Shown: positions 41,101-46,868 of the stretch, piece by piece
How the letters are laid out: every line of letters starts with the position of its first letter
Position numbering within the stretch: the first letter of the stretch is position 1
Assembly (NCBI RefSeq): GCF_964204645.1
Contig: NC_134033.1
Location: 12,526,155-12,590,154 of the forward strand
Direction of reading: 5' to 3'
DNA: 64,000 nucleotides
Source: Tubulanus polymorphus
Lineage: Eukaryota; Nemertea; Palaeonemertea; Tubulaniformes; Tubulanidae
Translations under genes and position numbers: made by a program
Notes under the pieces: generated by a model
Seen by the model: the letters and a program-made list of their open reading frames with translations, nothing else
Told to the model about the DNA's origin: nothing
Databases searched by the model: none

Positions 41101-44100
41101 TCAGGAATGACCAATCTGCAGGAAACCTGTGAGAGATACTGACCCTGCTCAAGTCTTCATGTTCCAAGTGAAAATATATAGTGCGGTGCCAATTCATGAG
41201 TCAATTTCAAAGCTGTACTGGTCTTTCCTGGATTTCCAAGTTTTTACGTTCTTCGTCGCTGAGTTTTGTTCATTTTTTCCCCGTCCATTTCTTTTGCAGA
41301 CAAGTGTCGACCGAGGAGGGAGAACGAAAGGCCAAAGAATTAAATGTAATGTTTATCGAAACTAGTGCGAAAGCCGGCTACAACGTAAAACAAGTAAGCA
41401 TCTCGATCCAGTTCTAGCAGCATTCAAACAAAAAATGGGCCTTAAATCTGCGACCAGATGCACGGTCCACTGGCCCGTTTGCCAGCTGTTCAAAGGAGAT
41501 TTCTCATTTATGCCACTTTTTCATTTTTCTCTAAGTTATTCCGAAGAGTGGCCGCCGCTTTGCCGGGCATGGAACAAACTGACCAAAAGAAACCCGATAA
41601 TAACAGTATCCTTTTTTCGAATATTCGTAAACGAAAGTCGACTTTATTTTTACGAATTTCTCTACGCTCGGTCGATGTGCCACCCTCACTCGCTAGGGGC
41701 TGGATTTTTTAAACTGCTCGCTATGCTAAGTTTCCAGGTGGTAATAGGATGGATGTGTCTCTCTTTTTTCGCCGTTGGTAAACTTCTATTTCGTCTACAC
41801 GGTGCTGCGAACCGTCTCACTTCACTCTCCAGGTTTGTCCGATCGACCTCACGCGACCCTATCATCGATCATCGTCAGATCTCTTCATTACCGGGTGTGG
41901 TTTTGCGTCTTCGGATCTCGTGTGATGATGAGGAAGAACTTCTTTGTTTCGTAAAACGCTGTCGCACGGATCTGGCTGAATTCTAATGTAGAGCTTTACG
42001 TGTTGTCTTTAAAATAGAAAGTCTGAGATTTATTACGCATATTCTCTCAGGAAGGGCCAACTTCGGTTTTCTGAGTTAGTCGACTATAGTCGAACTAAGT
42101 GAAACCGAATGTCAGTTAATAGTCCGAACTAAATTCCGGTAATAGTTTGGAAATTAAGCGCATTCGGTTATTAGTTCCGACCACTAGTCGACTAGATACG
42201 AAAACCGAATTTGGCCACGGCCGGGCACGGGTTCCACTGTGTTTACTTCACCTTTAGGTATCATGCAATTATAACGTACACACATTTATGCCAATTTTCG
42301 ACATCCTCTCCCACTGATTCATACTTTTTGAAAATAGCCCGGGTCCCAGGACCCTGAGATTACAAATTCATGCGAGGTAGGGGAGGTAGATGGTGCCCCG
42401 AATTACTGGTATGTGCGTATAGATTGATGACTTGAATCGACCGCTTCATGTATTCGATAACAATCTAACTCGGCATCTTGTGTTTGATATTGTTTCAGTC
42501 TGAGAGCATTGGAAGTTATGAAATTGAGATTTCCCTTCCCTTGTATATATAGGTTCCACACCTTTCATGAAATCTAAATTGTTTGAACTGACTATGCTCT
42601 TTGTCATTGCCATGCTCCTTGACGAATTATGAACATTTAGTTTTTCGTAGCGCTTCAAACTAACAAATGCTTGGCTAGGTAAACTGTCCTGTAGTACACT
42701 TAAATCCAAAATAGGCTTAACCCTTTCAGTGCTGACTTATTAATACCCTATAGTGCTGAAGATAATTTGAAAATTTTCTGAAATTCCACCCTAGTATGTT
42801 GAATAACGGGAATACCACTATAGTGCCTCTACACCGCAGCGCGGTGTATCGCTCGTTACTAGTATTTGACTATGTTTGACAGGTGCTGCCATTTTTCAAT
42901 AGAGATAATCACTAATTACTAATTACATCAATACACCGCAGTGCAGTGTACTAGCAAAATCTATCACTGATTTATACACCACACTGCAGTGTAGACGCAC
43001 TGAAAGGGTTAAAGTATTTCTCAGATCGGTTATTTGTGGCTTTGGCCAAAGTCAGATACGAGTACGGAATAGTTCATGTATTCATATGTGCATCAGGGGC
43101 AGATTTTGACGGTGATTCGGGGTTATGTACCCCTACTTTCTCAGTCATCTAATTTTCCTAGATCCACCCCTGGTGCGTATGTATGGCTTAGAATTGTGGT
43201 GACAATAGAACGCACTGTTTCGACTTATATGGGACTCGTTGTGCTTCGACAGATCTGACTCGCTCTCTAAACAACAGTTGCACAGTTTTCTCTGCTGTAA
43301 TTAGAACAGTTTCGAAGCCGATTAATTAACTTCAGTGTGATAACGAACTACAATTCAGGTCATCGTAAATTTGCGTTTAACTTTTATGACGTACACATTA
43401 AACACTTCTAATTATTCCAATTACTATCAGTCTTTTGGAGAGAAAAAACAGATCATTTGTTAAACCCGATCTTGTGCGGATATCTTCAAATCTAAATTCA
43501 ATTCGTTTGAACCTAAATCGGAGTCATTAGGTCACAGTTTCGAGTTAAGATTTAACTCGGATTCAACTCATTGAAAATTAACTCAATTCTAACTCAGAAC
43601 TGTGGGAGAACTGAATCCTCAGTTTGAAACAAACTGAACCACTCATTGATTAACAGCAGTTTTTGATAAACTTTTAAAAGTATAGTATTTTCTTTGTGAC
43701 TTTCTGACTTCAAGTTATTTTTTTTTTTCCTATATATGTTGTGTTTTCGTTTCATTATTGTATATATTCAGTGTATATATTCAGAGGTTCATTTATAAAG
43801 TACGTGCACATCCATTTTGGGGCCACTCTAATGTTGGTCACTTCTCCCTATGGACTTGATGCTTAAAAGTGCATTGTTCATCATGTATACAAAAAATTTG
43901 TATAGATTCAGATAGTCCTAGCTATCATAACACGGATCCCATACTAAAAATGGGAAAAAGAATTTAAGTCCAAAAGATTTCTTTTGGTAGCTCATTCTGT
44001 CAGTGTTTCGACTGCAGACCCCTCGGCACGCATTCCACATATGAACGCTACCATACATGGTGGGAAGGGGGTTCAAAATTTAACATGAACAGTACTTGAT

Positions 44101-44298
44101 AAATAACCTCTTATCATGCTGAATATTTGGTGTGATTTTTGTTGTCTTTCGTTTTTTGTTGTGTTTTTTTTTCAAAGTTTGCCGCATGTGATTTTTTGAT
44201 TTTTTAATTTCCTTGACCATTGCGTTTCAGTGATCGAAGTGAAATTAAAAGACACACCGTCCGAGCCTATGCAACAGGAAAACGGCTGCTCCTGTTAA
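35160..44298 (+). CDS. RAB6: Rab6 small GTPase (isoform with first last exon)
   Basis: Ras-superfamily GTPase of the Golgi, directing retrograde and exocytic vesicle traffic. Coding exons: 35,160-35,229; 35,685-35,743; 39,788-39,841; 40,066-40,171; 40,747-40,858; 41,300-41,393; 41,536-41,605; 44,231-44,298. All joins keep frame with GT-AG sites, giving 210 aa, close to the ~208 aa of vertebrate Rab6. Visible motifs: P-loop GEQSVGKT (residues 20-27), switch I TIGIDF with Thr45, WDTAGQE (67-73, catalytic Gln72), NKTD (126-129), ETSAK (154-158), and the family-specific [13 protein letters not shown]. This form ends MIEVKLKD...NGCSC, a CXC motif for double geranylgeranylation. The start ATG is followed by [19 protein letters not shown], as in other Rab6 proteins. 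Family identification is very secure. Confidence 0.95.
36590..36770 (+). mobile_element. Retroelement tail remnant (Penelope-like?) in Rab6 intron 2
   Basis: The word series CCTGAAGATGACTATTAGG...GTCGAAACGTTGAAATAAA followed by TCTACATCGCGTCAACACGG is of a type I associate with the ends of Penelope-like or related retroelements in invertebrates. No reverse transcriptase frame is left nearby. Assignment rests on memory of that motif. Confidence 0.35.
36799..36850. mobile_element. Partial Tc1/mariner-like MITE end
   Basis: CAGTCAACCCCCAATATACCGCC matches the terminal repeat of the elements at 39,447 and 50,466. The partner end is degraded (possibly near 36,860). Confidence 0.4.
37320..37500 (+). 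repeat. Two-copy tandem repeat with ATCCATGTCC sub-repeats
   Basis: The block ATAGGTAGAATAGTTCATATCC...GGTTAGAACT occurs twice about 74-80 bp apart; a six-base CATGTC expansion distinguishes the copies. Intronic in Rab6. Confidence 0.65.
38573..38690. mobile_element. CAGGGTGGCGCCACT-type element fragment
   Basis: Left end ACAGGGTGGCGCCACTGTCC matches the family seen at 4,192-4,258 and 8,750-8,805; the right end is a weaker GTGGCCACCCTT. Intronic in Rab6. Confidence 0.4.
39182..39406 (+). repeat. 33-35-bp minisatellite, about 7 copies, Rab6 intron 2
   Basis: Unit CCCCTAGACCTCGGCAGGGC followed by TATGTCAA(G)A is repeated about seven times with few changes; edges are more diverged than the centre, as expected for an array that grows internally. 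It lies ~380 bp before Rab6 exon 3. Confidence 0.9.
39447..39533. mobile_element. Tc1/mariner-like MITE, ~87 bp
   Basis: CAGTCAACCCCCAACATACC at the left pairs with GGTATATCGTGGGTTAATTG at the right, each flanked by TA, the target site of Tc1/mariner elements. Same family as the copy at 50,466-50,737. Confidence 0.6.
40961..41122 (+). repeat. ~34-bp minisatellite, 4-5 copies, Rab6 intron 5
   Basis: Unit CAGGAATGACTGATCTGTGG plus GGACCCTGTATAT is repeated four to five times between Rab6 exons 5 and 6. Unrelated in sequence to the minisatellite in intron 2. Confidence 0.85.
42055..42216. mobile_element. MITE, GGCCAA..TTCGGTTTTC inverted ends
   Basis: Left GGCCAACTTCGGTTTTC...AGTCGACT and right AGTCGACTAGATACGAAAAC..TTGGCC are imperfect ~31-bp inverted ends. 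A diverged relative sharing GTCGACTAT, GTGAAACCG.ATGTCAGTTA and AAAACCGAA lies near 58,915-59,155. Intronic in Rab6. Confidence 0.6.
42721..43008. mobile_element. piggyBac-like MITE with TTAA target duplication
   Basis: The 288-bp element begins CCCTTTCAGTGC and ends GCACTGAAAGGG, a perfect 12-bp inverted repeat, and is flanked by TTAA on both sides (42,717-42,720; 43,009-43,012). TTAA duplications and CCC/GGG termini are diagnostic of the piggyBac superfamily. It has no transposase frame. The interior holds three near-palindromic TACACYGCASYGCRGTGTA words (near 42,831, 42,932 and 42,974). It lies in the Rab6 intron before last exon A. Confidence 0.85.
44231..44298 (+). CDS. RAB6: Rab6 alternative last exon A (tail ends CSC)
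   Basis: Acceptor TGCGTTTCAG at 44,221-44,230, phase 1 entry, 68 nt to and including TAA. Encodes [13 protein letters not shown]...ENGCSC. It corresponds to the MIDIKL...CSC tail exon of vertebrate Rab6A. A possible poly(A) signal AATAAA is at 45,809-45,814, giving a ~1.5-kb 3'UTR. Confidence 0.9.
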
Positions 44299-46699: not shown

Positions 46700-46800
46700 G
46701 ATCCACACTTGCATTTTCAAAATTGGCGCCATCAATCCTCAATTACATCTCTGACTGGACGAATTGTATGTGTTTGTTCCTTGACCCGTGTTTTATCTAG

Positions 46801-46868
46801 AAATCGAACTGAAGCCGAAAGATCCGACACCAGAACAGCCGGAAGCGGAAGGAGGGTGCATCTGCTGA
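46801..46868 (+). CDS. RAB6: Rab6 alternative last exon B (tail ends CIC)
   Basis: Acceptor TTTTATCTAG at 46,791-46,800, phase 1 entry, exactly 68 nt including TGA, like exon A. Spliced from 41,605 it encodes KIELKPKDPTPEQPE...GGCIC. Tail positions align one for one with exon A (I-E-V/L-K, then Pro/Glu-rich, then GCxC), so the two look like a tandem exon duplication used as mutually exclusive last exons. The variable tail of Rabs influences membrane targeting and prenylation, so the two forms may differ in localisation; that part is inference. Poly(A) signal candidate at 48,676-48,681. Confidence 0.85.

Follow-up and report, generated by a model that had tools for sequence, protein, structure and literature searches.

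The Rab6 locus

This report concerns a Rab6 gene of the nemertean Tubulanus polymorphus, lying on the forward strand of a 64,000-nucleotide stretch of contig NC_134033.1 (positions 12,526,155 to 12,590,154; hereafter the window, with positions counted from its first letter), in which a shared coding region is followed by two homologous candidate last exons, termed tail A and tail B. The core of the gene consists of seven exons between 35160 and 41605 (+), which assemble into 565 nucleotides (nt) with no frame break and leave one codon base over (phase 1). Joined to either tail it gives a protein of 210 residues, and both forms carry a C-terminal double-cysteine motif, CSC in A and CIC in B, from which prenylation is predicted.

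Compared with the PDB, form A finds its top match in Rab-6A (4dkx; E value 1.5e-115, full length), with Rab6, Rab-6B and YPT6 entries filling the ranking down to 4.3e-76 and Rab-5A following at 1.3e-46. As the protein is nearer to Rab6 than to other Rabs across the GTPase domain, it is, judged by sequence, a member of the Rab6 subfamily.

In a protein search of the 267.8-Mb genome, in which the window belongs to the contig numbered C9, identities of 68–100% to Rab6 occurred solely at this locus and did not exceed 59% elsewhere among the best candidates, none of which is a second or tandem Rab6 gene copy. Exon 7 joined to tail B found only its own two places in the genome. Exon 7 DNA matched only itself there, giving no sign of a retrocopy of spliced Rab6 RNA. 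The initial annotation of this stretch had set the locus apart from vertebrate RAB6A, in which the duplicated exon of the A/A′ isoforms is internal. A six-frame search of the window with the peptide of exon 4, presumably the counterpart by content of the vertebrate A/A′ exon, returned a single copy and thus no internal duplication of that type; the exon that is duplicated here is the last, and the contrast holds.

Homology of the tail exons

Both tail exons are preceded by a CAG/TAG acceptor and complete the codon opened by exon 7. They align without gaps, with 10 of 22 residues and 38 of 68 nucleotides identical, and so combine equal length, the same frame, compatible splice sites and sequence homology, the features by which homologous exon duplicates are recognised (PMC3228551; papers are cited throughout for the excerpts available of them). 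Two in-phase 68-nt last exons after position 41,605, alignable residue for residue and ending in CSC or CIC, had been proposed in the initial annotation, and are seen here in the assembled frames, acceptors and stops as well as in the gapless alignment with CxC at both ends. The interpretation attached to them stands as regards duplicated, phase-matched and prenylatable last exons, the contrast with vertebrate Rab6A and the difference in prolines (two in A, four in B); it does not stand as regards charge, which is −2 net in both tails (two basic and four acidic residues in A, three basic and five acidic in B).

The resemblance was measured against all AG-preceded open frames of 15–45 codons in the phase of exon 7, collected over the whole window on both strands (1,168 on + and 1,229 on −, in total 2,397) and scored against the human RAB6A tail. 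Tails A and B tied at the top with a score of 56 each, both sharing 11 identical residues with the human tail; beneath them came shortened forms of the same tails (40, 40 and 33), and the best unrelated frame reached 22. The Rab6 tail of Drosophila, which entered none of these counts, is probably nearer to tail A. The BLOSUM score between A and B was matched by none of 200,000 shuffles, and by 22 of 200,000 when the C-terminal CxC was excluded. Such short tails might be thought to match by chance within intronic sequence, as CxC is readily found and six of the 11 listed + strand frames that end in CxC or CC in the right phase are not Rab6 tails, but the drop from 56 to 22 between the tails and all other frames of the window, the shuffles and a 10-mer common to both upstream flanks leave this explanation next to no probability. 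A chance match or misread frame is ruled out in practice by the window-wide scan together with the shuffles. Reading on past exon 7 into a retained intron, followed by eye, gave no CxC end.

The common 10-mer, TTCCTTGACC, ends 12 nt ahead of tail A and 14 nt ahead of tail B; these are its only two + copies in the window, with none on −. An equally long shared run at a similar offset was found in 15 of the 30,676 AG pairs of the region. Three of these are the tail pair itself, seen once as such and twice in displaced views; the other 12 are chance cases. The 10-mer looks like a branch-point region retained since the duplication.

With 30 differing sites among 68, the tails are not recent copies or haplotypes. 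In a neutral simulation at 0.33 substitutions per site, a score of at least 56 against the human tail was retained in five of 20,000 runs starting from A and 14 of 20,000 starting from B, and at 0.66 substitutions per site in none of 20,000 from either. Among random copies carrying 30 differences with the frame intact, two of 2,000 reached the observed protein similarity between A and B. These comparisons provide good support for tails A and B being homologous last exons that arose by an old tail-exon duplication and have been under constraint.

Splice and 3′ end signals

The exon 7 donor agrees with the consensus at three of six positions, compared with five or six in the other six Rab6 donors. 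Between the stop codon of tail A and the start of tail B no GTRAGW donor is present (1.84 expected from the window rate), which fits tail A as a terminal exon and lends mild support to it. Candidate poly(A) signals, together with the exons of Rab6, the copies of the 10-mer and the tail exons of a Rab11 gene considered below, are collected in Table 1.

Table 1. Coordinates of the exons and signals discussed in the text; C45 is another contig of the same genome, and L033 numbering is internal to the Rab11 locus.
Feature	Position	Strand	Remarks
Rab6 exon 1 (coding start)	35160..35229	+	ATG, P-loop start, donor GTAAGT
Rab6 exon 2	35685..35743	+	CAG acceptor, GTAAGA donor, frame kept
Rab6 exon 3	39788..39841	+	assembled reading frame
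Rab6 exon 4, switch II region	40066..40171	+	one copy found within window
Rab6 exon 5	40747..40858	+	assembled reading frame
Rab6 exon 6	41300..41393	+	assembled reading frame
Rab6 exon 7, last shared exon	41536..41605	+	phase 1 end, weak donor GTATCC
10-mer TTCCTTGACC, branch-point-like	44209..44218	+	22 to 13 nt 5′ of tail exon A
Rab6 tail exon A	44231..44298	+	68 nt, 22 tail residues, CSC end, then TAA stop
ATTAAA, between the tails	44818 and 46224	+	consensus match
AATAAA, candidate poly(A) signal of transcripts ending in tail A	45809..45814	+	sole AATAAA between tails; consensus match only
10-mer TTCCTTGACC, second copy	46777..46786	+	24 to 15 nt 5′ of tail exon B
Rab6 tail exon B	46801..46868	+	68 nt, KIELKPKDPTPEQPEAEGGCIC, CIC end, then TGA stop
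ATTAAA, downstream of tail B	48529	+	consensus match
AATAAA, first after tail B, candidate poly(A) signal	48676..48681	+	consensus match only
Rab11 tail exon 1	C45:53142-53278 (L033 569-705)		137 nt, EIYRIVSQKQIQEAPHEDEIAGHNVQSIRVEPTENIDRKNTCCSV, ends CCSV
Rab11 tail exon 2	C45:53612-53748 (L033 1039-1175)		137 nt, EIYRIVSQKPLPSADDENISSNVQTIRVEPTENMNERKKIFCCNM, ends CCNM
Rab11 tail exon 3	C45:54418-54551 (L033 1845-1978)		134 nt, EIYRIVSQKQIRDSSDNESPSSNSQPVIPLTDGAGDRKKQCCST, ends CCST

Several other elements lie in and around the gene. A palindromic element at 46561-46702, with nested arms 46561-46580/46683-46702 and 46590-46626/46643-46679, ends about 100 nt 5′ of tail B and in RNA would form a hairpin near the tail B acceptor. 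With 40 of 278 candidates scored, it gave 83 matches, a large share of which are a single place hit on both strands; because similar copies are spread across many contigs, the element resembles a short foldback transposon. Rab6 introns also hold two minisatellite-like arrays, at 39182-39404 (29-nt unit, 7.6 copies) and 40960-41118 (34-nt unit, 4.7 copies). The intervals 34440-34800 and 49250-49590 are alike by eye, both ending near TCGATGCCATCAGGTTCGAATCCCT, and are reminiscent of a short interspersed nuclear element (SINE) or a tRNA. Six open reading frames neighbouring Rab6 were compared with Pfam and yielded no families; downstream of the gene, a 142-residue open frame at 51738-52166 (−) is protein-like by eye, with no Pfam match.

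Rab11 and the scan of Ras-family loci

A Rab11 gene at C45:52574-59924 (locus L033) carries three tandem in-phase last exons, so the arrangement is repeated in this genome, and the triple may be the more remarkable of the two cases. All three tails start with EIYRIVSQK, and each follows CAG and completes the codon opened by the preceding exon (donor GTAAGA). The three pairs have 27, 21 and 22 residues in common, with 93, 76 and 80 shared nucleotides, and the tails carry net charges of −3, −1 and 0. AATAAA occurs at L033 897, between tails 1 and 2, and at 1540 and 1644, between tails 2 and 3. With tail 1 the protein has E values of 5.3e-108 to Rab-11B and 1.2e-106 to Rab-11A, as against 7.2e-53 for YPT1, and the tail peptides have C45 as their sole match in the genome.

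The search for further cases covered 33 loci totalling 237,560 bases: Rab6 and the 32 listed Ras-family matches whose profile alignment begins beyond position 37 and reaches at least position 148 (among them C45, C2:3164098 and C11:8196246), full-length single-exon matches and matches beyond those listed being left out. It was aimed at pairs of in-phase terminal frames with cysteine-motif ends. Homologous tail exons emerged in two of the 33 loci, with best pair scores of 114 for Rab11 and 56 for Rab6, the next locus reaching 17. No cysteine-pair end was detected by the scan in eight of the 32 loci besides Rab6, which shows that cases can escape it and that more may exist. A looser version, for which a cysteine anywhere among the final five residues sufficed at a score of at least 38, returned 28 stop pairs, of which three belong to Rab11, one to Rab6 and 24 to neither; the latter are mostly DNA repeats, and those of L024 (64) and L018 (63), which are not near-identical repeats, are by eye unlike Rab tails. 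An unplanned positive control of the tail scan came from L029 (C1:3243545-3250646), where the reverse strand at offset 91-201 holds a terminal frame ending NVKINSSTPVKQSGGGCC, which resembles a Rab1 tail.

Proposed roles of the tails

Most probably the locus is one animal Rab6 gene whose two homologous last exons are alternatives, both in use. The weak exon 7 donor would join tail A, with the 3′ end formed ahead of B (the AATAAA at 45809 being the probable signal), or would alternatively skip past tail A to tail B, the outcome being two Rab6 proteins of 210 residues with a common GTPase domain and effector face. Because both end in CxC, both would be doubly geranylgeranylated, and the two forms are unlikely to differ in lipid class; Rabs with CxC ends are expected to be served by the same enzyme with the same lipids. 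The different 3′ untranslated regions (UTRs) would also permit separate regulation of the two mRNAs.

The most conspicuous difference between the tails is at tail positions 4–6, which read IKL in human, VKL in tail A and LKP in tail B. Tail A thus preserves a hydrophobic-x-hydrophobic motif at the human position, while tail B, richer in prolines, is left with just an upstream IEL. Two hydrophobic residues of the Rab tail contact GDI and REP (PMC2693434), the AXA box of the yeast Ypt1 tail makes contact with REP/GDI (PMC6548291), and the majority of worm Rabs possess a ‘recognizable hydrophobic CIM’ (PMC3504004). The IKL of human Rab6 may be such a REP/GDI-contacting motif, in which case the two tails would be held differently by REP and GDI, and be delivered to and extracted from membranes at different rates. 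It is tentatively suggested that the choice of tail tunes membrane cycling via REP/GDI, rather than through lipid or charge. The initial annotation suggested that the tails could steer membrane choice, which is possible; REP/GDI tuning would account no less well for the particular residues that have changed.

A number of observations weigh against this picture of two functional tails that cycle differently. The tail acceptors score 3.51 (A) and 2.07 (B), below the 6.35–11.87 of the six constitutive Rab6 acceptors, a comparison that is biased by the acceptor matrix having been trained on those same six, and they rank 5 and 13 among the 252 AGs of the region. The candidate poly(A) signals of Rab6 are supported by their consensus match only. 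At the protein level, the upstream IEL of tail B could itself act as the hydrophobic motif. Swaps of the hypervariable region (HVR) were without effect on targeting in one study, human Rab5 did not show the AXA contact that yeast Ypt1 makes, and HVR length, not residues, may matter (all PMC6548291); the Rab6 tails are equal in length.

The acceptor of B scores below that of A, the Met and the hydrophobic residue common to human Rab6A and tail A are missing from B, and the palindromic repeat element ends some 100 nt from it, all of which would suit a gene using one tail only, most likely A (which has kept the initial Met and VKL), with B a decaying duplicate or the remnant of a lost second copy. 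This is nevertheless very unlikely, as B retains frame, length, stop, acceptor and CxC despite 30 differences in 68 sites, an outcome that the neutral simulations almost never produced, and equals A in closeness to the human tail. Moreover, the other Rab6 exons expected of a second copy were not found among the best candidates of the genome search, and in Rab11 there are three intact tails.

A stronger, though still somewhat doubtful, alternative is that both Rab6 exons are used and the tails are equivalent, the choice regulating the 3′ UTR, and with it mRNA stability, localisation or translation, while the tail is merely prenylatable. The tails are indeed alike in length, net charge, CxC class and human-tail score; each is followed by an AATAAA of its own, as AATAAA also separates the three Rab11 tails; and the HVR has been treated as a rather non-specific GDI contact (PMC6548291). 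What regulation through the 3′ UTR does not predict is that 12 of 22 Rab6 tail residues should differ, a hydrophobic position included, or that the Rab11 tails should differ in body and range in net charge from −3 through −1 to 0.

On a bolder reading of both genes, this animal lineage may be diversifying its Rab repertoire through extra copies of the last exon and not of the gene. The two tails of Rab6 and the three of Rab11, each of them complete and prenylatable, would set different anchors on a GTPase and effector face that stay the same, with the motif change in Rab6 giving fast- and slow-cycling forms at constant lipid class and net charge. This is speculative and, as a whole, unlikely. 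Were it true, the Rab6 tails would do a job that is given to separate genes in vertebrates (RAB6A/RAB6B) and nematodes (rab-6.1/rab-6.2). The role of the Rab hypervariable tail beyond its lipid anchor is disputed, swap experiments having had opposite outcomes (PMC2693434, PMC6548291). The Rab6 pair amounts to a natural experiment on this question, in which only the body of the tail is varied, the GTPase domain, the lipid motif, the net charge and the length of the tail being constant, and the three-tailed Rab11 of this genome is a second.

Comparison with known systems

No description of duplicated Rab6 last exons appeared in the top results of a search of titles and abstracts in the open-licence PubMed Central literature that was directed at Rab6 and its analogues and not at Rab11 tails; the tail pair may be unreported, and such isoforms may already be annotated in sequence databases. 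Vertebrate RAB6A likewise yields splice isoforms from one gene of the same family, Rab6A and A′ being splice products of a single gene (PMC4758642), but the duplicated exon here is the last one, and the switch II exon was seen once in the window. The human RAB6A-201 and -202 transcripts in blood have the same 208-residue sequence (PMC9714508). In C. elegans, rab-6.1 and rab-6.2 are separate genes, and rab genes mostly have one predicted splice variant, with rab-3 and 4R79.2 as exceptions (PMC3504004).

RAB28 is another Rab whose splicing alters the C-terminus; the report of its variants is reportedly, to go by its title, that of Brauers et al. 1996. A preprint survey of 167 RAS superfamily members, apparently human, found C-terminal splice variation in nine more genes, including Rab8A, Rab15, Rab28 and Rab35; CDC42 alone among the nine resembles KRAS in having distinct membrane-targeting tails (PMC9882654); Rab6 and Rab11 are not named among these cases in the excerpts available.

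Homologous terminal exons that swap the C-terminus also place the Rab6 pair alongside the C-terminal class of tandem duplicated exon substitutions, which is common in human, with 77 of 236 events (PMC9741552); RAB6, CDC42 and KRAS do not occur in the main text of that paper as available. Terminal exon pairs can act via multiple poly(A) sites, and not by true mutually exclusive splicing (PMC3228551). Annelid lamins have one CaaX and one alternative C-terminus through splicing (PMC10125929).

The closest parallels are found in KRAS and CDC42. KRAS4A and KRAS4B arise from two mutually exclusive last coding exons, each with a hypervariable tail and a lipid motif (PMC9882654, preprint), and Rab6 is similarly one small-GTPase gene in which each alternative last exon encodes a complete tail and a lipid motif to go with it. 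Lipidation and polybasic signals set the two KRAS tails apart, whereas both Rab6 tails end in CxC, carry a net charge of −2 and have two and three basic residues. KRAS exon 4A has been proposed to derive from NRAS (PMC9882654, preprint), in contrast to the Rab6 tail copy, which looks local. In CDC42 the last two exons are alternative, giving a C-terminal end in CVLL or in CCIF and switching the type of lipid (PMC9868626). The Rab6 exons resemble those of CDC42-prenyl and CDC42-palm in altering the C-terminal end, and differ in that the Rab6 tails are of one CxC class, and the Rab11 tails of one CCxx class, with no evident lipid switch. What is new here is probably the occurrence in a Rab of homologous alternative tails with a conserved lipid motif, in more than one gene of a genome, and Rab6 and Rab11 together would bring Rabs into the class in which the survey, in the excerpts available, found only KRAS and CDC42 (PMC9882654).

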